A DNA stretch of 64,000 nucleotides from Luteimonas huabeiensis HB2 (GTDB lineage Bacteria; Pseudomonadota; Gammaproteobacteria; Xanthomonadales; Xanthomonadaceae). Positions 45,656 through 57,695 of the stretch are shown one piece after another. The notes under the pieces are model-generated. The model saw only the letters and a program-made list of their open reading frames with translations. It was not told where the DNA came from and did no database searches. How positions within the stretch are numbered: the first letter of the stretch is position 1; the number at the start of each line of letters is the position of its first letter. The position numbers were made by a program, and so were the translations under genes. The stretch spans positions 1-64,000 of the forward strand of contig NZ_JAAN01000010.1 in assembly GCF_000559025.1 (NCBI RefSeq), read 5' to 3'.

Positions 45656-45669
45656 TTGATCGCGATCAA
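45656..45669. promoter_or_regulatory. FNR/Anr-type box
   Basis: TTGATCGCGATCAA is a perfect match to the FNR-family consensus TTGAT-N4-ATCAA, embedded in a 16-bp palindrome (45655-45670) directly beside the TetR-type repeat. It lies 85 bases upstream of the ATG of the fabI remnant. It may make the divergent promoters oxygen-responsive. Consensus match is seen; function is inferred. Confidence 0.6.
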
Positions 45670-45753
45670 TGCGGGGCCACCGCCGGACCGCGATCCTGCT
45701 ACGGCCGCGGCGCCATGCCGCGGCGCGGGCGGACCGAAACGGAAGGAGCGGAC

Positions 45754-45828
45754 ATGGGCGCGCTGGACGGCAAACGCGGGTGGGTGGTGGGCATCGCCGA
45801 CGACCGCAGCATCGCTGCCGAGCTCGGG
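45754..45828 (+). pseudogene. 5' fragment of an enoyl-ACP reductase (fabI-like)
   Basis: AAGGAG precedes an ATG that opens MGALDGKRGWVVGIADDRSIAAELG, the typical start of FabI: the D-G-K strand, the first NAD loop, and the 'RSIA' that follows it. After about 25 codons the similarity ends abruptly, and the downstream DNA encodes the signal peptide of an LpxR-like protein in another frame. The body of the reductase gene is missing, so this is a deletion or recombination scar that keeps an original promoter and ribosome site. Confidence 0.65.
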
Positions 45829-46880
45829 CCGCGCCGGTCGCCGCGCTCCTGCTCGCGGCGGGCGCGCTGTGGCCCGCATCGCCCCTGCTCGCGGCGGAGG
45901 GGTGCCGCGCACGCGCCGCGCCGCTCGCGGCCCGTTCCACCTTCAACCTGCGCATCGACAACGACATGTTCGGTGGCGCCGGCCAGGACCAGGGCTACAC
46001 CAACGGCTTCCTGCTCAGCATGGTGTCGCCGAACCTGCTCGACTACCTCGACGATCCCTGCCTGCCGCTGCTCGTGCGCCGCTTGAACGGGTATCTGACG
46101 CGCCTGCAGCCGGAGGGGTTCGACGAGCAGAACATGACCATCGGCCTGGGCCAGATGATGTACACGCCGGTGGACCACGCGCGGACCGACCTGATCCCGG
46201 ACGACCGCCCCTATGCCGGGGCGCTGATGTTCAGCCTCGGCTACAACGCCCGGCGCGGCGACCATCTGCGCACCACACAGGTCCGCGTCGGCGTGGTCGG
46301 TCCAGCGTCGCAGGCCGATGCGATCCAGGACGGGTGGCATGATCTGATCGGGGCCGATCGGTTCCAGGGGTGGCAGCATCAGCTGCGCGACGAGCCGGTG
46401 TTCCAGCTGATCCACGAGCGCCGCAGGCGACTGCGGCGGCAGGCGGGCGCCACGGGCTGGGGCTGGGACCTGACCCGGCACTGGGGCGCGAGCCTGGGCA
46501 ACTTCGCGACCTACGCCAACTTCGGCGGCGAACTGCGCCTGGGCCTGCGTCTGCCCGACGACTTCGGCACCGCGCCGCTGCGCCCGGCCGGCGAGAACAC
46601 CGCGCCGGTCAATGCGACCGGCGACGGTCGGTGGAACGGGCACCTCTTCATCGCCGCCGACGCGCGCTGGGTGCTGCGCGACATCACCCTGGACGGCAAT
46701 ACCTTCAAGTCCAGCCACAGCGTGGACAAGCGCCCGTTCGTCGCCGACCTCGGCTACGGGCTCGCGGTCTACCGCGGCCACTGGCGGCTGGCGTTCGCGC
46801 GCTACCACCGCACCCGCGAATTCGACGGCCAGGGCGAGGTGCCGGTCTACGGCACCATCACCCTCGGCAGGCGGTTCTGA
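45780..46880 (+). CDS. LpxR/DUF2219-family outer-membrane lipid A deacylase-like protein
   Basis: A beta-barrel enzyme family that removes the 3'-acyloxyacyl chain of lipid A. The mature protein starts near CRARAAPLAARSTFNLRIDNDMFGGAGQDQGYTNGF, with the Asn-Asp pair of the active site. DRPYAGALMFSLGY and VVGPASQADAIQDGWHDLIG (catalytic-His segment) follow, and it ends with LGRRF, an outer-membrane C-terminus. A hydrophobic signal (APVAALLLAAGALWPASPLLA) lies upstream, but the only nearby starts are the GTG at 45780 or codons further up, all within the fabI scar. The native start seems lost, so translation may now depend on the fabI ribosome site or a weak GTG. Confidence 0.75.
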   Translation: MGGGHRRRPQHRCRARAAPVAALLLAAGALWPASPLLAAEGCRARAAPLAARSTFNLRIDNDMFGGAGQDQGYTNGFLLSMVSPNLLDYLDDPCLPLLVRRLNGYLTRLQPEGFDEQNMTIGLGQMMYTPVDHARTDLIPDDRPYAGALMFSLGYNARRGDHLRTTQVRVGVVGPASQADAIQDGWHDLIGADRFQGWQHQLRDEPVFQLIHERRRRLRRQAGATGWGWDLTRHWGASLGNFATYANFGGELRLGLRLPDDFGTAPLRPAGENTAPVNATGDGRWNGHLFIAADARWVLRDITLDGNTFKSSHSVDKRPFVADLGYGLAVYRGHWRLAFARYHRTREFDGQGEVPVYGTITLGRRF

Positions 46881-46912
46881 TCCTTCCCTTCATGTCGCAG
46901 ACCCGAGACGCC

Positions 46913-47800
46913 ATGCCCCGACTGATTCTGCCGATGCCCGGCAACGAGGCCTTCGCCGCACGCCTGGCCGCTGCCCTCGACGCCCAGGTCGGCCGCGTCG
47001 AGACCCGGCGCTTTCCCGACGGCGAAAGCTACGTGCGCCTGCACGGCGATCCCGCCGGCCGGGCGGTCGATCTGGTCTGCACGCTGGCGCGCCCGGATCC
47101 GCAGTTCCTGCCGCTGGTCTTCGCCGCCGATGCCGCGCGCGAACTCGGCGCCGCCCAGGTGAACCTGATCGCGCCGTACCTGGCCTACATGCGCCAGGAC
47201 AGCCGCTTCCGGCCGGGGGAATGCATCACGTCGCGCTCGTTCGCGCGCCTGCTGTCGTCGACCTTCGATCGCTTGCTGACCGTCGATCCGCACCTGCACC
47301 GGCACCCGGCGCTGTCGGCGATCTACGCCATGCCCACCGCGACCCTGCAGGCCGCGCCGCTGCTGGCCGGCTGGATCGCCGCGAACGTGGACGCGCCGCT
47401 GATCGTCGGCCCGGACGAGGAGAGCGAGCAGTGGGCGGGCGCCATCGCGCGCGGGATCGGTGCGCCGCACGCGGTGCTGCGCAAGACCCGGCACGGCGAT
47501 CGCGCCGTGGAGATCGACGTGCCCGATCTGTCCCGGCATCGCGGGCGTACCGCGGTGCTGGTGGACGACATCGCCTCGTCCGGGCGCACCCTGGCCGTGG
47601 CCGCGCGCAAGCTGTCCGAACAGGGCTTCGCCCGGCCCGAGTGCGTGGTGGTGCACGCGCTGTTCGCCGACGAGGCCTTCGCCGAGCTGGCGCCGCTGTT
47701 CGCGCGCATCAGCTCCACCGATGCGGTGCCGCACCCGAGCAACCGCATCGCGCTGGCGCCGTTGCTGGCCGACGCGCTGCAGCGCGACCTGCGCGATTGA
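46913..47800 (+). CDS. Divergent ribose-phosphate pyrophosphokinase (PRPP synthetase)
   Basis: The 295-residue protein has the PRPP-synthetase/phosphoribosyl-transferase fold. Family segments are RRFPDGESYVRL, APYLAYMRQDSRFRPGECITSRSFARLL, TVDPHLHRH (metal-binding His) and the PRPP loop TAVLVDDIASSGRTLAVAA. The usual flexible-loop region after the His is changed (VGPDEESEQWAGA). It interconverts ribose-5-phosphate plus ATP and PRPP plus AMP. Being in a catabolic operon, it may run toward ribose-5-phosphate and ATP. An ATG at 46892 would add seven residues. The next gene starts 58 bases downstream. Confidence 0.83.
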   Translation: MPRLILPMPGNEAFAARLAAALDAQVGRVETRRFPDGESYVRLHGDPAGRAVDLVCTLARPDPQFLPLVFAADAARELGAAQVNLIAPYLAYMRQDSRFRPGECITSRSFARLLSSTFDRLLTVDPHLHRHPALSAIYAMPTATLQAAPLLAGWIAANVDAPLIVGPDEESEQWAGAIARGIGAPHAVLRKTRHGDRAVEIDVPDLSRHRGRTAVLVDDIASSGRTLAVAARKLSEQGFARPECVVVHALFADEAFAELAPLFARISSTDAVPHPSNRIALAPLLADALQRDLRD

Positions 47801-47858
47801 ACCCATCCGCCGCCGGGCGGCACGCGCCGCCGGGGGCTCCAGAGGGAGGACCCACCGC

Positions 47859-50267
47859 ATGACCGCCGACACCGACCCCCGCGCCCGCTGGCTCGCCGGC
47901 CACGGCCCGATCGTCCACCGCGCCGACACCGTCGCGCGCATCGATGCGCAGGTCGCGCGCCTGCACGCCGAAGGCCGCATCCGCCATCCCGACCGGGCCC
48001 ATGCGCTGCTGGCCGCCGCCGACCGCATCGCCTGCACGGCGATGAACGTGGTCGCGCACATGACCTATGCGCGGCGCATCGACCTGGCCGGCGCCCCGCT
48101 GGCGGCCGACGATTTCAAGCCGGTGCCCGAAGGGCATACCGGCGGCTCGCTGAACATGGTGCCGGCCTATGTCGGCTACCTGCTGGCCAACGCGCTCAGC
48201 GGCGACACCCGCGGCTGGCTGATGGGCCAGGGCCATTGCGTGGCGGCGATCGAGGCGGTCAATGCGCTGACCGGCGACGTGTCGCCCGCCCAGCGCGGCC
48301 GCTACGACCGCAGCGAGGCCGGGCTGTCGCGGCTGTGCGCCGATTTCTACGCCTATGCCATCGACGCCGACGGCCGGCCGGCGGCGCCGCTGGGCAGCCA
48401 CGCCGGCCCGAACACCGCCGGCGCGGTCTGCGAGGGCGGCTATCTCGGCTTCGCCGCCCTGCAGTACGTGCACATGCCGCTGCCGGGCGAGTCGCTGGTG
48501 GCGTTCCTGAGCGACGGCGCGTTCGAGGAGCAGCGCGGATCGGACTGGGCGCCGCGCTGGTGGCGCGCCGAGGACAGCGGCTTCGCGGTGCCGGTGATGA
48601 TCCTCAACGGCCGCCGCATCGAGCAGCGCACGCAGATCGTGCAGGAAGGCGGCGCGCCGTGGCTGGCCGAGGACCTGCGCCACAACGGCTTCGCGCCGAC
48701 GATCGTCGACGGCCGCGACCCGGCGGCGATCGCCGGGGCCATCCTCGAGGCCGAGGCCGCGCTGCGCGCCTTCGCCGCCGCGCCGCAGCGGCGCTACCCG
48801 GCGCCGTTGCCGTACGTGATCGCCGAGACCGAGAAGGGCTTCGGCTTCCCGGGCGCCGGCACCAACGCGGCGCACAACCTGCCGTTGTCGGGCAATCCGC
48901 ACTTCGATGCCGATGCGCGCGCGCTGTTCAACCGCAGCGCGGCCGCGCTGCACGTCGCGCCGGCGGCGCTGGACGCGGCGCTGGCGGCCTTCGCCACCCA
49001 CGTCGAGCAGCGGCGCCCTCCGGAGAGCGCGCACCCGATGGCGCACCGCCGCCCGCCCGCGCCGATCCTGCCGGAACCCGCCTGGGCCTCCGGCGGCGGA
49101 GACGCCAGCGCGATGGCGGCGCTGGATCGCTGGTTCATCGACTTCGTGCGGGCCAACCCGCAGCTGCGGGTGCGCGTCGGCAACCCGGACGAGCTGGCCA
49201 GCAACAAGATGGGCGGGACCCTGGCCCTGCTCCGGCACCGCGTCAACGCGCCCGAGCCCGGCGTGCCCGAGGACCTGCACGGCGCGGTGATCACCGCGCT
49301 CAACGAGGAGGCCGTGGCCGCCGCCGCGCTGGGCAACAAGGGCGGGCTGAACCTGATCGTCAGCTACGAGGCCTTCGCGGTGAAGATGCTCGGGCTGCTG
49401 CGCCAGGAGGCGGTGTTCGCGCGGCGCCAGAAGGAACTCGGGCCGGGCCCGGGCTGGCTGTCGGTGCCGCTGGTGGTCACCTCCCACACCTGGGAGAACA
49501 GCAAGAACGAACAGTCGCACCAGGACCCGACCATCGGCGAGGCGCTGCTGGGCGAGATGTCCGACACCGCGCGGGTGCTGTTTCCGGTGGACGGCAACAC
49601 CGCGGTCGCGGCGCTGCGCGACGTGTACGCCGGCCGCGGCCAGGTGGCCTGCGTGGTGGTGTCCAAGCGCGAGGTGCCGCAGCGCTTCGATGCCGCGGCG
49701 GCGCAGGCACTGGTGTGCGACGGCGCAGGCCACGCGGCGGGCCGCCCCGACGAGGCCGAGGTGCAGCTGGTCGCCATCGGCGCCTACCAGCTCGACGAGG
49801 CGCTCAAGGCGCGGGCGCACCTGGCCGCGCGCGGCCGGCGCGCCTGCGTCAGCGCGATCCTGGAGCCGGGCCGGCTGCGCGTGCCGCGCGACCGCATCGA
49901 GGCCGGCTTCGTCGCCGGCGACGACACCGTGCGCGCCCTGTTCCCGCCGGGCTTGCCGCGCGTGCTGCTGACCCACACCCGTCCCGAACCCATGCTCGGT
50001 CTGCTGCGGCGCCTCGACGGCGGCCCCGCCGCCACCCGCGCGCTGGGCTACATCAGCCGCGGCGGTACGCTGGACGTGGCCGGCATGCTGTTCGCCAACC
50101 GCTGCACCTGGGCGCACGCGGTGGATGCCGCCGCCGACCTGGCCGGCTGGGAGCGCACGGCCTTGCTGGACGCGCCGCAGCGCGCCGCGCTCGACGGCCA
50201 CGGCGACCCCGCGGCGCTGCGCTTCGCTCTTTCCGACACCGACCAAGGATCCCCATGCTCTCGCTGA
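47859..50267 (+). CDS. Divergent phosphoketolase-like ThDP enzyme
   Basis: The 802-residue protein aligns with xylulose-5-phosphate/fructose-6-phosphate phosphoketolase over its whole length. Active-site equivalents are kept: His93 (EGHTGG), His126 (MGQGH), His339 (AHNLPL), Glu near 483 (LNEEAV) and His554 (SHQDP). The ThDP motif GDGEAETG is altered to SDGAFEEQRG (218-227), and Xfp's P-E-T loop is also changed, so activity may be shifted; database entries for such divergent members carry names such as xylulose-5-phosphate 3-epimerase. It would yield acetyl phosphate and a C3 phosphate. GGGAGGA precedes the ATG; the reading overlaps the next gene by 13 bases. Confidence 0.8.
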   Translation: MTADTDPRARWLAGHGPIVHRADTVARIDAQVARLHAEGRIRHPDRAHALLAAADRIACTAMNVVAHMTYARRIDLAGAPLAADDFKPVPEGHTGGSLNMVPAYVGYLLANALSGDTRGWLMGQGHCVAAIEAVNALTGDVSPAQRGRYDRSEAGLSRLCADFYAYAIDADGRPAAPLGSHAGPNTAGAVCEGGYLGFAALQYVHMPLPGESLVAFLSDGAFEEQRGSDWAPRWWRAEDSGFAVPVMILNGRRIEQRTQIVQEGGAPWLAEDLRHNGFAPTIVDGRDPAAIAGAILEAEAALRAFAAAPQRRYPAPLPYVIAETEKGFGFPGAGTNAAHNLPLSGNPHFDADARALFNRSAAALHVAPAALDAALAAFATHVEQRRPPESAHPMAHRRPPAPILPEPAWASGGGDASAMAALDRWFIDFVRANPQLRVRVGNPDELASNKMGGTLALLRHRVNAPEPGVPEDLHGAVITALNEEAVAAAALGNKGGLNLIVSYEAFAVKMLGLLRQEAVFARRQKELGPGPGWLSVPLVVTSHTWENSKNEQSHQDPTIGEALLGEMSDTARVLFPVDGNTAVAALRDVYAGRGQVACVVVSKREVPQRFDAAAAQALVCDGAGHAAGRPDEAEVQLVAIGAYQLDEALKARAHLAARGRRACVSAILEPGRLRVPRDRIEAGFVAGDDTVRALFPPGLPRVLLTHTRPEPMLGLLRRLDGGPAATRALGYISRGGTLDVAGMLFANRCTWAHAVDAAADLAGWERTALLDAPQRAALDGHGDPAALRFALSDTDQGSPCSR

Positions 50268-51613
50268 CGTCCCTCGGTGCCGCCGGCACCGTCACCGGCT
50301 CCAAGCACCTGCTGACCCACGGCGACACCCGCATCCTGATCGATTGCGGCCTGTTCCAGGGCCTGAAGAACCTGCGCGAACTCAACTGGCAGCGGCTGCC
50401 GGTGGAGCCGCGCGACATCGACGCGGTGGTGCTCACCCATGCCCATCTCGACCATTGCGGCTACCTGCCGCGGCTGCTGCTGGACGGCTTCTCCGGTCCG
50501 ATCTTCGCGACCGCCGCGACCCGCGACGTGGCCGAGCTGATCCTGCTCGACAGCGCCTGGCTGCAGGAGAAGGACGCCGAGTTCGCCAACCGCAAGGGCT
50601 TCTCCAAGCACAAGCCGGCGCTGCCGCTGTACCGGGTGGCCGACGCCGAACGCACCCTGGCCGCGTTCCGGCCGGTGCCGTGGCACCGGCCGGTGGCGCT
50701 GCCGGGCGGCGCGACGCTGCGATTCCGCCGCGCCGGGCACATCCTCGGCGCGGCCAGCGCGCAGATCGACGTGGCCGGCCGGACCTTCGCCTTCTCCGGC
50801 GACCTGGGCCGCTACGACGATCCGGTGATGCATCCGCCCGAAGCGGTGCCCGAGGCCGACTACGTCGTGGTCGAGTCGACCTACGGCAACCGCCGCCACG
50901 ACCGCGCCGATCCGGTCGAGGCCCTCGGCGAGACGATCGAGCGCACGGCGCTGCGCGGCGGCACCGTGGTGATTCCCGCCTTCGCGGTCGGCCGCGCGCA
51001 GACCCTGATCCACGAGCTGTGGCGGCTGCGCGAGGCCGGCCGGCTGCGCAACGTGCCGACCTACCTCGACAGCCCGATGGCCACCAGCGCCACCGAGCTG
51101 CTGCACCGCCACGCCGCCGATCACAAGCTCGATCCCGCCGACTACGAGGCCGCCTGCGCCGCGGTCACCTACGTGCGCGACGTGGAGGCATCCAAGGCGC
51201 TGTCGGCCAACCGCTATCCCAAGATCGTCATTTCCGCCAGCGGCATGGCCACCGGCGGCCGCGTGCTGCACCACATCGCCGCGTTCGCGCCGGACCATCG
51301 CAACACCCTGCTGTTCTCCGGTTTCCAGGCCGCGGGCACGCGCGGGCGCAAGCTGCTCGACGGCGCCCGCGAGACCAAGATCTACGGGCAGTGGGTGAGC
51401 GTGAACGCCGAGGTGGCGGAGATCCCCTCGCTTTCGGCGCATGCCGACAGCGACGAACTGATGCGCTGGCTGTCGGGCTTCCGGCGGCCGCCGCAGCGGG
51501 TGTTCGTGGTCCACGGCGAGCCGGAGGCCTCCGAGGCGCTGCGCGAGCGCATCCAGCGCGAGCTGGACTGGCCCGCGACGGTGCCGCTGCAGAACCGGAA
51601 CTACCCGCTGTGA
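50255..51613 (+). CDS. MBL-fold RNase/CPSF-like protein with RMMBL domain
   Basis: The 452-residue beta-CASP metallo-beta-lactamase is of the CPSF/YSH1-like group. Its metal sites are LTHAHLDHCGYLP (H-x-H-x-D-H), HILGAASAQ, FSGDLGR (Asp) and SLSAHADSDELM. Beta-CASP motifs include VVESTYGNR and ISASGMATGGRVLHH. The C-terminal RMMBL segment ends VFVVHGEPEASEALRERI. Members cut RNA endo- or exonucleolytically. In this operon, it could feed ribonucleotides to the phosphorylase downstream. Its stop overlaps the next start by four bases (GTGA). Confidence 0.88.
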   Translation: MLSLTSLGAAGTVTGSKHLLTHGDTRILIDCGLFQGLKNLRELNWQRLPVEPRDIDAVVLTHAHLDHCGYLPRLLLDGFSGPIFATAATRDVAELILLDSAWLQEKDAEFANRKGFSKHKPALPLYRVADAERTLAAFRPVPWHRPVALPGGATLRFRRAGHILGAASAQIDVAGRTFAFSGDLGRYDDPVMHPPEAVPEADYVVVESTYGNRRHDRADPVEALGETIERTALRGGTVVIPAFAVGRAQTLIHELWRLREAGRLRNVPTYLDSPMATSATELLHRHAADHKLDPADYEAACAAVTYVRDVEASKALSANRYPKIVISASGMATGGRVLHHIAAFAPDHRNTLLFSGFQAAGTRGRKLLDGARETKIYGQWVSVNAEVAEIPSLSAHADSDELMRWLSGFRRPPQRVFVVHGEPEASEALRERIQRELDWPATVPLQNRNYPL

Positions 51614-53154
51614 ACGCCGCAGCGCGCGCGCCGGTGCCGGTGCTGCACGCCCACCGCATGCGCCTGCATGCGCAGCACCAGTGCATCGCGATCGTGCACG
51701 CCGAGTGCCACGTCAGCCATGCCGAGGGACTGTCCCCGCGCAGCCAGGTGCTGGTGATCGCCGGCGGCCGCCAGGTGCAGGCGCTGCTGTACCAGACCGA
51801 CAGTCCGTCGTTCGGGCTCGACCGGGTGGCGTTGTCGGAAGCCGCCTGGGACGCGCTGGGGATCTCCGACGGCGACACCGTGGAGGTCCGCCACGCGCCG
51901 CTGCTCGAATCGCTGGCGGCGGTGCGCCGGCGCGTGTACGGCGGGCGCCTGGGCGCGGGGGACTTCGCCGCCATCGTCGGCGACGTGGCCGCCGGCCGCT
52001 ACACCGACGTGCACCTGTCGGCATTCCTCACCGCGACCGCGGTGCTGCCGCTGGACGCGGACGAGACCGTGCACCTGACCCGCGCCATGGTGGAGGCCGG
52101 CGAGCGCCTGCGCTGGCCGGGCGCGGTGGTGGTGGACAAGCACTGCGTCGGCGGGCTGCCGGGCAACCGCACCACCCCGCTGGTGGTCGCCATCGCCGCC
52201 GCCAACGGCCTGACCATGCCCAAGACCTCCTCGCGCGCGATCACCTCGCCGGCCGGCACCGCCGACACCATGGAGACCCTGGCGCCGGTCGATCTCGACC
52301 TCGCCACGCTGCGCCGGGTGGTCGAGGCCGAAGGCGGCTGCCTGGCCTGGGGCGGGGCGATGCACCTGAGCCCGGTGGACGACGTCTTCGTGCGCATCGA
52401 GCGCGAGCTGGACATCGACAGCGAGGGCCAGATGATCGCCTCGGTGCTGTCGAAGAAGATCGCCGCCGGCGCCACCCACGTGGTCATCGACATCCCGGTC
52501 GGCCCGACCGCCAAGGTGCGCAGCCGCGAGGCCGCCGAGCATCTGGCCCGCCGCCTGACGGCGACGGCGGATGCCTTCGGCGTCGCCCTGCGCTGCCTGT
52601 TCACCGATGGCATGCAGCCGGTCGGGCGCGGCATCGGGCCTGCGCTGGAAGCGCGCGACGTGCTAGCGGTGCTGCGCAACGCCGCCGATGCCCCGCAGGA
52701 CCTGCGCGAACGCGCCGTCCTGGTCGCCGGCGCGGTGCTGGAGCTGGGCGGCGCGGCCGCCGAAGGCGACGGCCCGCGCCTGGCGCTGGACACGCTCGAC
52801 AGCGGCCGCGCCTGGGCGCGCTTCCAGCGCATCTGCGATGCCCAGGGCGGTCTGCGCGAGCCGCCGCAGGCGCGTTATGTCGAACCGCTGCGCGCCGCGC
52901 GCGCCGGGCGGGTGACGGCGATCGACAACCGCAAGCTGTCGCGGCTGGCCAAGCTGGCCGGGGCCCCGGAGCGCAAGGCCGCCGGCGTCGATCTGTCGGT
53001 GCGCCTGGGCACGCGGGTCGAGCGCGGCCAGCCGCTGTTGTACCTGCACGCGCAGACGCCGGGCGAGCTGGCCTATGCGCTGGCGTTCGCCCGCGATGCC
53101 GGCGGCATCGTCCGCATCGAGGATCCCGCGCGCCCGCCCGAGGCTCGACCATGA
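51610..53154 (+). CDS. AMP/thymidine-phosphorylase family enzyme (long, archaeal-type)
   Basis: This 514-residue enzyme has an N-terminal beta-rich extension (about 1-95), then the phosphorylase core: GRYTDVHLSAFLTA, VVDKHCVGGLPGNRTTPLVVAIAAANGLTMPKTSSRAITSPAGTADTMETL, IDSEGQMIASVLSKKIAAGATHVVIDIPVGPTAKV and a C-terminal biotin-like strand region. The KHCVGGLPGNRTT segment and the extension are those of archaeal AMP phosphorylases (NMP plus phosphate gives base plus ribose-1,5-bisphosphate). Bacterial copies are often called thymidine phosphorylase. A GTG start overlaps the upstream stop; ATGA joins it to ackA. Confidence 0.85.
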   Translation: MNAAARAPVPVLHAHRMRLHAQHQCIAIVHAECHVSHAEGLSPRSQVLVIAGGRQVQALLYQTDSPSFGLDRVALSEAAWDALGISDGDTVEVRHAPLLESLAAVRRRVYGGRLGAGDFAAIVGDVAAGRYTDVHLSAFLTATAVLPLDADETVHLTRAMVEAGERLRWPGAVVVDKHCVGGLPGNRTTPLVVAIAAANGLTMPKTSSRAITSPAGTADTMETLAPVDLDLATLRRVVEAEGGCLAWGGAMHLSPVDDVFVRIERELDIDSEGQMIASVLSKKIAAGATHVVIDIPVGPTAKVRSREAAEHLARRLTATADAFGVALRCLFTDGMQPVGRGIGPALEARDVLAVLRNAADAPQDLRERAVLVAGAVLELGGAAAEGDGPRLALDTLDSGRAWARFQRICDAQGGLREPPQARYVEPLRAARAGRVTAIDNRKLSRLAKLAGAPERKAAGVDLSVRLGTRVERGQPLLYLHAQTPGELAYALAFARDAGGIVRIEDPARPPEARP

Positions 53155-54452
53155 GCGTCCGGCCCCCCGCCGCCGCCGACGCGCCGGACACGCTGCGCAA
53201 CCGCACCTTCGACGAATTGGCGGACGCCGCCGTGAGCGCTGCGCCAGCGCCGCCCGCCGACCGCTATCCCACCGAGGGCGAGCTGATCCTGGTGCTCAAC
53301 TGCGGCTCGTCGAGCATCAAGTTCGCGCTGTTCGACGCCGGCCGCGACCCGCTGCCGCGCGCGCCGGTGTGGAACGGCAAGGTGCAGGGCATCGGCGGGC
53401 CGTCGCCCACCTTCGGCGAGACCGGCGTGGCCCCGGCGCCGGTCGCGCTGGATGCCGCGCGGCCCCATCACGCGGCGCTGGCGCGGATCCGCGAGCGCGT
53501 GCTGGCGCGGCTGGGCGGCCGCCGCCTGCACAGCGTGGCCCATCGCGTGGTCCACGGCGGCAGCCGCTACTTCGCCCCGGTGCGCGTGGATGCCGGCGTG
53601 CTCGCCGACCTGAAGTCCTACGTCCCGCTGGCGCCGCTGCACCAGCCGTTCGCGCTGGAGGCGATGGAGATCCTGCTGCGCGAGCGGCCGGCGCTGCCGC
53701 AGGTCGCCTGCTTCGACACCGCCTTCCACCACACCCGGCCGCAGGTCGAGCAGCTGCTGCCGCTGCCCTACGCGGCCTGGGAGCGCGGCCTGCGCCGCTA
53801 CGGCTTCCACGGCCTGTCCTACGAGTACATGGCCGCGGCGCTGCCCGAGCGCCACGGCGAGGCGCTCGCGCGCGGGCGCACGATAGTCGCGCACCTGGGC
53901 AGCGGTGCCAGCCTGTGCGCCATGCGCGAGCTGCAGAGCGTCGCCACCACGATGGGCTTCTCCGCGCTGGACGGGCTGATGATGGGCACGCGCACCGGCG
54001 CGCTCGACCCGGGCGCGGTGCTCTACCTGATGGAGATCGAGAAGCTGAGCCTGGAGCAGGTGGCCCGCGTGCTCTACCACGAGTCCGGGCTGCTGGGCGT
54101 GTCCGGCATCTCCGCCGACCCGCGCGAACTGCTGGCCCGCGAGGCCGGGGCGCCGCGCGCGGCGCTGGCGCTGCAGCTCTACGTGCGCCGCATCGTGCGC
54201 GAGCTCGGCGCCCTGGCCGCGGTGCTGGGCGGGCTGGACCTGCTGGTGTTCACCGCCGGCATCGGCGAGCACAGCGCGGTCCTGCGCGAGCGCGTGTGCG
54301 CGCAGCTCGGCTGGCTCGGCGTCGCCCTGGACGCGGCGGCCAACGCCGCCGACGCGCCGACGATCTCCGCCGCCGGCAGCCGCGTGCGGGTGGGGGTGGA
54401 GCCCACCAACGAGGAATGGATCGCCGCCGGCCACGCGCGCGGCCTCGCATGA
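53151..54452 (+). CDS. ackA: Acetate/propionate kinase
   Basis: The 433-residue ASKHA kinase converts acetyl phosphate plus ADP to acetate plus ATP. Motifs are LILVLNCGSSSIKFALFD, AHRVVHGG, CFDTAFHHTRP (catalytic Asp), YGFHGLSYEY, VAHLGSGASLCA (phosphate loop), MGFSALDGLMMGTRTGALDPG and FTAGIGEHSAVLRE. An N-terminal extension of about 43 residues precedes the usual start. As last gene of the operon it would use the acetyl phosphate made by the phosphoketolase-like enzyme. No pta gene lies nearby, supporting that source. Confidence 0.93.
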   Translation: MSVRPPAAADAPDTLRNRTFDELADAAVSAAPAPPADRYPTEGELILVLNCGSSSIKFALFDAGRDPLPRAPVWNGKVQGIGGPSPTFGETGVAPAPVALDAARPHHAALARIRERVLARLGGRRLHSVAHRVVHGGSRYFAPVRVDAGVLADLKSYVPLAPLHQPFALEAMEILLRERPALPQVACFDTAFHHTRPQVEQLLPLPYAAWERGLRRYGFHGLSYEYMAAALPERHGEALARGRTIVAHLGSGASLCAMRELQSVATTMGFSALDGLMMGTRTGALDPGAVLYLMEIEKLSLEQVARVLYHESGLLGVSGISADPRELLAREAGAPRAALALQLYVRRIVRELGALAAVLGGLDLLVFTAGIGEHSAVLRERVCAQLGWLGVALDAAANAADAPTISAAGSRVRVGVEPTNEEWIAAGHARGLA

Positions 54453-54561: not shown

Positions 54562-56385
54562 TCAGGCCGGCGAGGCCGCGACCTCGCCGTCGCCGTCGCC
54601 GGCCAGGCGCCGCAGCTCGCGCAGCGATTCGGGTTCCTCCGCGATGCGCAGCGCCTCGCGCAGGCTGCGGAAGATCCGGTCCACGTAGCCCAGGTCGTTC
54701 ATCAGCGAGGCCGCCTGCAGGCCGTCCAGCTCCCCGTTGCGCACCATCGCGAACAGGCGCAGCCGGAACGCGCTGCCGAACTCGGCCGCGCTGCGGTCGA
54801 GCGCGTCCAGGCGCTCGTGGCGGGTCGCGTCCTCGGGCGGCAGCCGCCCGAGCGCGTACAACGCACGCAGTTGCGCGAACAGGTGGCGGCGCAGCGCCAG
54901 GTAGGCCTCGCGCCGCGGCGAATCCGCCTCGCGCAGGCGCAGGCCGAGGTTCTTCTGCAGGTGCTTGGCGTCCTTGACCGCGTTGACCAGTTGCAGCGCC
55001 ACCATCTGGCTCTGCGCCCAGAAGCGCTGGTGCGCCTCGTCCAGCGGCGCGTCCAGCCGGCCCATGAAGCTCAGCAGGTCGGCGTAGACGCCCTTGACGT
55101 GGCGCTGGTACAGCGCCTCGGCGTCCTCGTCGCCGTCGTCCGGACGCGCGTCCAGCGCCGTGGGGTCCGGCGCCGGCCCGTCCAGCCGCTCGACCGGCAG
55201 GTACAGCGCGCGGCAGATGGATTCCATGCACAGCCGGCCCAGGTGGCGCAGTTCCAGCGCGACCGCGGCGGCCGCGGCGTCGGCGGAATCCAGCGCCTGC
55301 TCGGCGAGGTGGCGCGCGCGGACGCGACCGGCCTGCGCCGGATCCGGCGCGGTGAGCACGGCCGGCTCGGCGGTATCGGGCAGCCGCCGCGCCAGCCAGG
55401 CGGCGAGCCGCGTCTGCGCCGGCCAGAACAGCGCCACGCCGCCGGCGTTGAACAGGGTGTGGAACAGCGCCAGCTGCAGCAGCGGATTGCCGCCGAAGCC
55501 GGCGAGATCCGCCGTCGCGCGCACCAGCCAGCCCAGCGGCGCCAGCAGCGCGAGCGCCAGCGCCGCGGTGACGGTGTTGAACACGACGTGCGCCAGCGCC
55601 AGCCGCTGCCCGCTGCGGTTGCCGCCGAGCATGCCGACCACAGCGGTGCTGAGGCTGCTGCCCACGTTCGAGCCGATCGCGATCGCCAGGCCCTGGTCGA
55701 GCTGCAGCTGGCCGCCGGCGAGCGCGGCCAGGGTCAGCATCAGCGTGGCATGGCTGGACTGCAGCACCACGGTGACCGCCAGGCCCGCGGCGACGAACAG
55801 CAACGTGCCCGCCGCGCCCGGCGACGCGATCGTTCCCAGGTCCGGGCCGCCGAAGGCGTCGAAGTCGGCCTTGATCTGGTCGATGCCCAGGAACACGAAG
55901 GCCACGCCCAGCACCACGCGCCCGGCCGCCTTGCTCCTGGGCCCGGCGAAGCCGGCGAGCACGCCGAACACCAGCATCGGCAGCGCCAGCGGCGACAGGC
56001 TCAGGTCCTGCCCGGCCAGCGCCAGCAGCCAGATGCCGCTGGTCGCGCCGAGGTTGGCGCCGAAGACGATGGCGATGCCGCCGGCGAGCTGGACCAGGCC
56101 CGCGCTCACGAACGCGATCGTCAGCAGCGACACCAGCGTGCTCGACTGCAGCACCATCGTGCCCGCGATACCGAACATCAGCCCCCGCGCCGGCGTGCCG
56201 GTGCTGCGCGCCAGCCACTGCTCGAGCCGGCCGCCGGCGAGCTGGCGCAGGCCTTCCTCCAGGCACTGCATGCCGAACAGGAACAGCGCCAGCCCGGCGC
56301 ACAGCTGCAGCCAGCCGTCGTTGCGCCAGAACGACCACGCCAGCGCAGCGCCTACCGCCGCGACCAGCCACATGCGCGCCTTCAC
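54562..56385 (-). CDS. Na/Pi cotransporter with PhoU-like tail
   Basis: The 607-residue protein is of the NptA/YjbB type. The two inverted transport repeats contain the signature QSSTLVSLLTIAFVSAGLV and GANLGATSG in the first half, and QSSHATLMLTLAALAGG and GSNVGSSLSTAVVG in the second. The C-terminal 220 residues form a helical PhoU-like domain (about 385-600). It moves phosphate with sodium across the inner membrane, usually for export or homeostasis. The GTG at 56385 or ATG at 56373 may serve as start. It is convergent with ackA. Confidence 0.9.
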   Translation of the reverse strand: MKARMWLVAAVGAALAWSFWRNDGWLQLCAGLALFLFGMQCLEEGLRQLAGGRLEQWLARSTGTPARGLMFGIAGTMVLQSSTLVSLLTIAFVSAGLVQLAGGIAIVFGANLGATSGIWLLALAGQDLSLSPLALPMLVFGVLAGFAGPRSKAAGRVVLGVAFVFLGIDQIKADFDAFGGPDLGTIASPGAAGTLLFVAAGLAVTVVLQSSHATLMLTLAALAGGQLQLDQGLAIAIGSNVGSSLSTAVVGMLGGNRSGQRLALAHVVFNTVTAALALALLAPLGWLVRATADLAGFGGNPLLQLALFHTLFNAGGVALFWPAQTRLAAWLARRLPDTAEPAVLTAPDPAQAGRVRARHLAEQALDSADAAAAAVALELRHLGRLCMESICRALYLPVERLDGPAPDPTALDARPDDGDEDAEALYQRHVKGVYADLLSFMGRLDAPLDEAHQRFWAQSQMVALQLVNAVKDAKHLQKNLGLRLREADSPRREAYLALRRHLFAQLRALYALGRLPPEDATRHERLDALDRSAAEFGSAFRLRLFAMVRNGELDGLQAASLMNDLGYVDRIFRSLREALRIAEEPESLRELRRLAGDGDGEVAASPA

Positions 56386-57116: not shown

Positions 57117-57491
57117 TCAATCGCGGTCGGTGGTGGCGCTGCCGACGGTCAGGTCGCTGTCGTCCACGCGCGCGACGCCTTCGATGTCCTGGGCGATGCG
57201 CTTGGCCTTGTCGGCCTGGGCCTGGGTCTCGACGTTGCCCGACAGCGCGACCACGCCGTTGTTGGTGACCACGCGGATGTCCATGCCGGAGACGTCGGAA
57301 TCGGCCAGCAGGCTGGACTTGACCTTGGTGGTGATCCAGGTGTCGTTGATCGGCTGGTCGGAGTCGGCGGCCGCTGCGCGGTCGGTGTTGGTGGGGCGGT
57401 GGTCGTCGGCCAGCGCGCCGCCGGCGACGAGCATCAGGCCGCCCGACAGGGCGATGGCGAGCGCGGCTTGCGGGGTGCGGAAACGGTTCAT
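57117..57491 (-). CDS. Exported BON-domain protein
   Basis: The 124-residue protein has a signal peptide (AALAIALSGGLMLVAGGALA) and one BON domain (about residues 47-118): INDTWITTKVKSSLLADSDVSGMDIRVVTNNGVVALSGNVETQAQADKAKRIAQDIEGVARVDDSDLTV. BON proteins (OsmY type) act in the periplasm under osmotic or envelope stress, probably binding phospholipid. The start 57491 is the one giving the signal peptide. A clear terminator follows, so it is a single-gene unit. Confidence 0.9.
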   Translation of the reverse strand: MNRFRTPQAALAIALSGGLMLVAGGALADDHRPTNTDRAAAADSDQPINDTWITTKVKSSLLADSDVSGMDIRVVTNNGVVALSGNVETQAQADKAKRIAQDIEGVARVDDSDLTVGSATTDRD

Positions 57492-57695
57492 GGGAAAGCC
57501 TTCGTCGTGTTGGGTGTGGGACCGGAGTGTTTCCGCGCGGTCGTCCACGAAGCGTGACCGCGGACCGGGCCGGCGTGAAATAAACGGGCGCTGGCGCTCA
57601 CGTGCGCGAACGCCGCCTGAGCGGCGCGCGAAAGCGCGCCCGCTGTCCGCTCTCGCAGCCGTCCGCCTCCGGCGCGTTTCGCGCCGCGGGCGCGT

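Follow-up and report, generated by a model that had tools for sequence, protein, structure and literature searches.

A packed five-gene locus of Luteimonas huabeiensis that may turn nucleotides into acetate and ATP: a near-obligate core with an optional phosphoketolase-like module

Why should genes resembling a phosphoribosyl pyrophosphate (PRPP) synthetase, a phosphoketolase, a ribonuclease, a nucleotide phosphorylase and an acetate kinase lie packed together in a bacterial genome? This question is raised by a locus of Luteimonas huabeiensis HB2 (assembly GCF_000559025.1), located in a window of 64,000 nucleotides that comprises positions 1 to 64,000 of contig NZ_JAAN01000010.1. According to open reading frame calls and family models, five genes on the + strand span positions 46913-54452 of the window, and the junctions between them are, in order, a 58-base gap and overlaps of 13, 4 and 4 bases. 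An initial annotation, made from the sequence alone, had described this packing with its three overlaps; the coordinates confirm it and the family models match the names it gave. The genes are the following:

46913..47800, + strand: PRPP-synthetase-like gene of the PRK07199 subfamily, with an alternative ATG at 46892
47859..50267, + strand: phosphoketolase-like gene, here called XFPL, assigned by the Pfam families XFP/XFP_N and by predicted fold
50255..51613, + strand: beta-CASP metallo-beta-lactamase ribonuclease gene (PF10996 and RMMBL PF07521)
51610..53154, + strand: AMP-phosphorylase-type gene with a GTG start (PRK04350/TIGR02645)
53151..54452, + strand: acetate kinase gene, AckA (PF00871, 332.7 bits)

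We read these genes as a low-oxygen or energy-stress operon that would turn nucleoside monophosphates (NMPs), probably derived from RNA, into free base, acetate, glyceraldehyde-3-phosphate and ATP, a reading to which we give about even chances; the general idea of drawing energy from nucleotides is plausible. In the proposed route the beta-CASP enzyme would cut RNA, and the AMP-phosphorylase-type enzyme would convert NMP and phosphate into base and ribose-1,5-bisphosphate (R15P). The PRPP-synthetase-like protein would then carry out R15P + AMP -> ribose-5-phosphate (R5P) + ADP, filling a step that had been noted as missing, and RpiA and Rpe, whose genes are present elsewhere in the genome, would lead to xylulose-5-phosphate. 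XFPL would yield acetyl phosphate and glyceraldehyde-3-phosphate, and AckA would finally yield ATP and acetate. For AMP the sum would be 2 AMP + 2 Pi -> adenine + glyceraldehyde-3-phosphate + acetate + ATP (+ water). The second and third steps would belong to a near-obligate genetic core, the last two to an add-on module. A similar nucleotide-to-acetate route had been proposed at the outset: its linkage, AMP type, phosphoketolase fold and beta-CASP enzyme are supported, while the five genes turn out to be two modules and the passage through a reversed PRPP synthetase is unlikely here.

The first element of the core is the phosphorylase, whose family is strongly supported by sequence as being of the AMP-phosphorylase type, its substrate being predicted. 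Its scores exceed the cut-offs of both TIGR02645 (568.8 bits against 434.6) and PRK04350 (659.8 against 434), and its best PDB matches are the T. kodakarensis AMP phosphorylase entries 4ga5/4ga4 (344 and 330 bits). Residues 43-504 align with this archaeal enzyme, residues 43-100 corresponding to the archaeal N-terminal region ahead of the thymidine-phosphorylase core. The alignment also places one short signature:

52231..52248, + strand: SRAITS signature of AMP phosphorylase, aligned with the T. kodakarensis enzyme

This motif is found in 80 of 81 family members, the remaining one being a fragment. Moreover G168, S194-S199, T203, D256, S264 and K288 of the T. kodakarensis enzyme, which we take to be its substrate-site residues, are all identical in the aligned window protein. 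Between the AMP and thymidine types, which the initial annotation had named together, the PDB scores and the motif bear out the former; thymidine phosphorylase proper, whose best match reaches 128 bits as against 344, was rejected. A literature search, made mostly without subscription journals, turned up no work on AMP phosphorylase from bacteria or on this operon.

The phosphorylase is rarely found alone. Among 299 genomes sampled from the phylum, 39 phosphorylases in 35 genomes and 36 PRK07199 genes in 33 genomes score over their cut-offs, and 37 of the 39 phosphorylases have a PRPP-synthetase-like neighbour on the same strand, 33 of them within 171 bases and 4 at about 4 kb (two of these 37 neighbours score below the PRK07199 cut-off). 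In the reverse direction, 35 of the 36 PRK07199 genes lie near a phosphorylase, and all 33 genomes with PRK07199 have one (hypergeometric 6e-42, relatedness being ignored). Genomes G496 and G509 break the pairing. In G496 the phosphorylase is split across two contig ends, and since a sub-cut-off piece of it (C46:5418-5702) stands some 60 bases away from the PRPP-synthetase-like gene, G509 is the only true exception. Phosphorylase and PRPP-synthetase-like gene thus form a near-obligate core, often accompanied by the beta-CASP gene.

A gene of the AMP-phosphorylase type (E of 1e-60 or less) is also carried by 115 plasmid records, 29 of them from Sphingobium and 46 predicted to be conjugative. 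A 13.5 kb 'Bacteriophage sp.' record from human faecal samples (MT836048.1) holds a 67.5% identical phosphorylase; our guess is that this record is bacterial DNA rather than a phage gene.

The exception, G509, bears on the fate of R15P. In this genome (L191 8649-10580) the phosphorylase core lacks its customary N-terminal domain and is joined in frame to a PhnN domain, which scores 168.6 bits (cut-off 156). The full fusion, free of stops, is present in 4 of 80 genomes of one gammaproteobacterial family, belonging to three genera (G509, G584, G621 and G587; loci L191, L214, L215 and L216). A PRPP-synthetase-like gene lies near none of these four, within flanks of about 1.5 kb, and near the unfused phosphorylase at 7 of 8 loci of that family (four further unfused matches were left out). 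Because PhnN is, by its NCBIfam name, ribose-1,5-bisphosphokinase, the fusion speaks for R15P being made by the phosphorylase, and it suggests that the PRPP-synthetase-like protein is an alternative to PhnN, i.e. an R15P-handling enzyme.

Other enzymes acting on R15P were searched for in 34 of the 35 phosphorylase genomes (G496 left out) and in 34 hand-picked other genomes. The gap after R15P had been recognized in the initial annotation, with a phnN or isomerase gene elsewhere in the genome as a possible remedy; genome-wide, neither appears over its cut-off, the best isomerase-family match in this genome reaching 210.3 bits (cut-off 314.1), which we take to be probably a methionine-salvage homologue, and the best PhnN match 54 bits (cut-off 156). 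RuBisCO (ribulose-1,5-bisphosphate carboxylase/oxygenase) gave no match in this genome, and a RuBisCO or isomerase route was rejected, no gene for it being over cut-off in the genome. R15P isomerase is over cut-off in none of the 68 genomes. RuBisCO is found in 18 of the 34 phosphorylase genomes and in 3 of the 34 others, but a single family (f191) accounts for 9 of the 18, and nothing is inferred from this. PhnN exceeds its cut-off in 7 of 34 genomes that have the phosphorylase, the fusion-bearing G509 being one of them, and equally in 7 of 34 that lack it, so PhnN does not travel with the phosphorylase.

These counts bear on the route first proposed, in which a PhnN-like kinase encoded elsewhere raises R15P to PRPP and the PRPP-synthetase-like protein runs in reverse, PRPP + AMP -> R5P + ATP. 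It would account for the retained family membership and catalytic residues of that protein, and PhnN is after all a natural fusion partner of the phosphorylase; however, the score of PhnN in this genome, its equal frequency with and without the phosphorylase and the remodelling of the loop expected to hold pyrophosphate make this route unlikely here.

What, then, does the PRPP-synthetase-like protein do? It scores 427.9 bits with PRK07199 (cut-off 322). We compared 75 subfamily sequences with 20 canonical PRPP synthetases hand-picked from below-cut-off matches; the 75 are all members of the PRPP-synthetase-like cluster at the loci retrieved, for some of which no phosphorylase was detected. The nucleotide-binding and catalytic FxDGE, RQD, H, KxR and DD residues are kept: R94, D96, H127, K191, R193, D218 and D219 in 75/75, Q95, F34 and E38 in 74/75, and D36 in 73/75. 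The loop that we take to be the pyrophosphate-binding one is altered:

47408..47434, + strand: altered pyrophosphate loop GPDEESEQW (canonical SPDVGGVVR), from the alignment of 75 with 20 sequences

In the subfamily SPDxGGxxR becomes GPDxESxQW, with E in 74/75 and S in 72/75 as against GG in 20/20 canonical enzymes, and the loop glycines (DxGG) are absent; L186, near the edge of its stretch, shows GG; it is probably a canonical gene and was kept among the 75. A small active-site change can alter the product of such enzymes, since human PRS1 H130A gives ADP instead of AMP, according to the available part of PMC4363470. If ADP replaced ATP in the same attack, the reaction would become R5P + ADP <-> R15P + AMP, whose reverse direction fits the pathway. 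In our reading the PRPP-synthetase-like protein would consume R15P, most likely by R15P + AMP -> R5P + ADP, and the energy of the ribosyl-1-phosphate bond may in this way be kept as ADP.

The same protein could instead be an accessory PRPP synthetase working forward, the phosphorylase freeing bases and PRPP serving to rebuild NMPs, that is, base salvage and not energy metabolism. Its TIGR01251 score (186.5 bits, cut-off 113) agrees with this, as do the universally conserved catalytic residues kept across the major PRPP synthetase classes (2026 preprint, PMC13252144, available part). We nevertheless hold base salvage to be doubtful, given the near-obligate pairing with a phosphorylase of catabolic type, the diverged pyrophosphate loop and the acetate kinase and phosphoketolase modules, which energy use fits better.

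The add-on module starts from XFPL, which matches PF03894 (133.8 bits, cut-off 22) and PF09364 (39.9 bits, cut-off 23.7). Its AlphaFold2 model, built with 33 sequences, has a predicted local distance difference test (pLDDT) value of 81.9 and a predicted template-modelling score (pTM) of 0.84, and its 20 best PDB fold matches are phosphoketolases without exception (template-modelling scores of 0.71-0.75, one at 0.68), several being chains of a single entry; transketolases come next. For the residue comparison 80 XFPL sequences were set against 19 canonical phosphoketolases, obtained from 19 of 22 loci (L023, L028 and L032 gave no fitting frame), the canonical enzyme of G340 having been removed from the XFPL side. 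XFPL residues H93, H126, H181, H554 and E483 are present in 80/80 and H339 in 79/80, and the same residues in 19/19 canonical enzymes. The canonical catalytic histidines and glutamate are H64, H97, H142, H320, H553 and E479; the active site also has Q321, Q546 and H548. In a tree that includes 36 of the 80 XFPL sequences, XFPL splits cleanly from the 19 canonical sequences with support 0.97. XFPL forms a clade of its own that has the phosphoketolase fold and retains most of the catalytic residues; its activity is predicted.

The surroundings of XFPL agree with such an activity: its common neighbours AckA, MaoC-PTA (a phosphate acetyltransferase) and PhaC would use acetyl phosphate or acetyl-CoA derived from it. 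In G340 (L163 5716-11301) a canonical phosphoketolase lies 730 bases from a PRPP-synthetase-like gene, with the phosphorylase alongside. The phosphoketolase-like designation was thus upheld by the fold and by the adjoining acetate kinase. Public records name the protein xylulose 5-phosphate 3-epimerase (14 of 15 plasmid records with a long match), and no paper behind this name was found in the literature searched; with the fold of a thiamine diphosphate enzyme, 20 phosphoketolases as top PDB matches, conserved catalytic residues and acetate kinase, MaoC-PTA and PhaC as neighbours, an epimerase is very improbable.

Are the five genes a unit? Linkage was counted around the best 80 of at least 554 confirmed XFPL loci, i.e. 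the nearest relatives, some near-identical, and 24 of these lack full 10 kb flanks. Near XFPL lie beta-CASP in 71 of the 80 loci, phosphorylase in 51, the PRPP-synthetase-like gene in 49 and AckA in 40, and 18 loci have the complete set of five; among the 56 loci with full flanks the counts are 50, 37, 36 and 29. At 9 of the 71 loci the beta-CASP match is merely 41-43% identical and may be a paralogue. Clustering of the genes of 111 loci failed to pick up the beta-CASP and AckA genes of the window itself, and its counts are thus lower bounds: at least 40 for AckA, 13 for MaoC-PTA and 12 for PhaC.

Farther away the set comes apart. Of 8 XFPL loci of the class that are more remote, 5 have AckA nearby and 2 have the phosphorylase with the PRPP-synthetase-like gene (1 of these 2 is among the 5), while one has only beta-CASP and one has none of these genes; the more distant XFPL genes of the class mostly adjoin AckA without the core, which tells against the pathway proposed here. 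Plasmids show further combinations: those of Novosphingobium and Sulfitobacter carry the core together with XFPL and no AckA, that of Acidovorax has the core near XFPL on opposite strands with AckA by XFPL, that of Alteromonas has XFPL and AckA only, and that of Phenylobacterium XFPL alone. Because these distant loci and five plasmids show varied partial gene sets, the five genes are two modules rather than a strict unit, XFPL and acetate kinase being an optional add-on. The linkage in proteobacteria, whose absence from related genomes the initial annotation would have counted as a refutation, proved real, in the 80 loci and the 299 genomes; it is patchy in distribution, and among the 299 there are 4 other members of the window's family, in none of which either core gene exceeds its cut-off.

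This patchiness raises the possibility that the genes merely share a mobile stress and metal-resistance island with low-oxygen control and form no single pathway. Neighbours such as metal P-type ATPases, ABC transporters, other exporters, universal stress proteins, MgtC and cardiolipin synthase are in line with an island, as are the 115 plasmid records (46 predicted conjugative) and the absence of the core from 4/4 same-family genomes sampled. We consider it quite unlikely all the same, since phosphorylase and PRPP-synthetase-like gene are paired on the same strand in 37/39 cases phylum-wide, also amid quite different neighbours, and since genes overlap and the phosphorylase can be fused to PhnN.

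The genome itself holds three paralogous copies of the system, on contigs C10 (the window), C15 and C19, with XFPL of C19 77% and of C15 60% identical to that of the window. A PRK07199 gene and an AMP-phosphorylase-type gene adjoin XFPL in all three, and the three acetate kinases detected in the genome each lie within 7 kb of one of its three XFPL genes, beyond which no phosphoketolase-family gene was found in the genome.

The first step of the route was assigned to a beta-CASP RNase-like protein, and this TTHA0252-type family is borne out by the domains (PF10996 and RMMBL PF07521), with HxHxDH and the other metal ligands present, and by alignment to TTHA0252. The protein is related to Cas14 of type VII CRISPR (NF045584, 390.5 bits); identity with it was rejected, the score being under the cut-off of 800.

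Low oxygen enters the reading partly through a site upstream of the operon:

45656..45669, + strand: exact FNR/Anr-type box TTGATCGCGATCAA, before the lpxR-like gene

The box is the only exact match in the window, and sites with at most one mismatch number 2 against 0.85 expected, a count reached by 23 of 100 shuffles. In the 80 loci 20 boxes were counted against 2.75 expected (20 order-1 Markov simulations, maximum 6); none of the 20 is directly upstream of a core gene, several standing before genes for glyceraldehyde-3-phosphate dehydrogenase, a metal ATPase or similar neighbours. Among the other copies in the genome, L039 and L040 have no box and L192 has one, before a metal ATPase. Since the window count alone says little, the boxes do not directly precede core genes and the other copies mostly lack them, the box is a weak sign of possible low-oxygen control.

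In Bradyrhizobium diazoefficiens three adjacent genes are induced at 0.5% O2: bll3115 (metallo-beta-lactamase), bll3116 (ribose-phosphate pyrophosphokinase) and bll3117 (thymidine phosphorylase family) show log2 protein changes of 2.9, 4.4 and 2.1 and transcript fold changes of 15.4, 7.7 and 5.1, respectively, and the phosphoketolase family protein bll2518 increases as well (PMC6515984, available part). In Burkholderia H111, nucleoside ribose has already been suggested as an energy source in micro-oxia (PMC3759415, available part).

Several further points weigh against the pathway proposed here. XFPL falls below all NCBIfam phosphoketolase cut-offs (777 to 1518; best 125.2 bits), is about 22% identical to canonical phosphoketolases, and has N340 (77/80), N547 (80/80) and K549 (80/80) in place of the canonical Q321, Q546 and H548 (19/19). 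A phosphoketolase-family gene lies elsewhere in 5 of the 12 phosphorylase genomes having one (G509, G370, G301, G420 and G373). The phosphorylase scores 462.8 bits with the AMP_phos equivalog TIGR03327, below its cut-off of 535. H127 of the PRPP-synthetase-like protein, by our own reading the counterpart of human H130, is unchanged in 75/75. The reaction R15P + AMP -> R5P + ADP is probably somewhat uphill, so that subsequent steps would have to draw it forward. As for the beta-CASP enzyme, its role on RNA may be regulatory rather than one of bulk decay. We know of no assay for any protein of the operon. Finally, the three B. diazoefficiens genes were matched to these families by name and order, not by sequence, and the available part of PMC6515984 lists them neither as NifA or FixK2 targets nor as changed in bacteroids.

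The surroundings of the five genes contain an additional gene and two traces of others:

45669..46880, + strand: lpxR-like gene (PF09982, 349 bits), an open frame whose true start is uncertain
45754..45819, + strand: start remnant (22 codons) resembling fabI, running into lpxR out of frame
53169..53222, + strand: acetate kinase residues 7-24, start remnant of MaoC-PTA by sequence match

The lpxR-like frame ends 32 bases upstream of the PRPP-synthetase-like gene, and its family occurs in at least 16 of the 111 clustered loci, in L073 directly preceding the PRPP-synthetase-like gene; it is probably the first gene of the operon. The fabI-like remnant, which sits 3' of the FNR-type box, is 64% identical over 22 amino acids to fabI of the Novosphingobium plasmid pLA4 (E of 9e-6 when compared with 10 proteins and of 0.006 with all 8095 frames in the set) and is likely a deletion scar running into lpxR. 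The MaoC-PTA-like start of the acetate kinase (72% identity over 18 amino acids, E 2e-4 against 13 proteins) is likely another such scar, judging from the match; in the C19 copy MaoC-PTA, a short-chain dehydrogenase/reductase and AckA are separate genes. Downstream of the operon, on the - strand, lie a Na/Pi cotransporter gene (54562-56385) and a BON-domain (OsmY-like) gene (57117-57548).

Known systems resemble parts of this arrangement. The archaeal pentose bisphosphate (AMP) pathway consists of AMP phosphorylase, R15P isomerase and type III RuBisCO. Its first enzyme is of the same family as the one described here, with SRAITS and the ligand residues, and R15P is the proposed intermediate in both; here, by contrast, no R15P isomerase (0/68 genomes) or RuBisCO (this genome) is over cut-off, and R15P would go to R5P and then to the phosphoketolase. 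The heterofermentative phosphoketolase pathway shares the fold, most catalytic residues and an adjoining acetate kinase, whereas XFPL is a separate clade with about 22% identity and three active-site changes, and would be fed by nucleotides, not sugars. PhnN, the alternative partner of the same phosphorylase by fusion, makes PRPP and spends ATP; it is not over cut-off in this genome. The B. diazoefficiens microoxic regulon includes the same set of three by name, as far as the available part of its description goes. The low-oxygen-activated lxa locus of Burkholderia cenocepacia, likened by general description only, would be a similar kind of stress island and holds central metabolism, stress and transport genes (PMC9104464, available part).

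Taken at its boldest, and only tentatively, our reading is that PRK07199 proteins are not PRPP synthetases but hitherto undescribed R15P-consuming enzymes (R15P + AMP <-> R5P + ADP), which with AMP phosphorylase would permit bacteria a RuBisCO-free and isomerase-free use of nucleotides, coupled here to acetate kinase and a novel clade of phosphoketolases as a low-oxygen emergency source of ATP. The most testable new point is the action of the PRPP-synthetase-like partner on R15P: with a near-obligate partner carrying a remodelled loop and a natural PhnN fusion, the fate of R15P can be tested directly with two purified proteins. If this is true, a widespread subfamily now called 'ribose-phosphate pyrophosphokinase' would need a corrected name, as would the proteins called 'xylulose 5-phosphate 3-epimerase', and a microoxia-induced gene set, which the available part of an expression study lists by name only (PMC6515984), would acquire a function.

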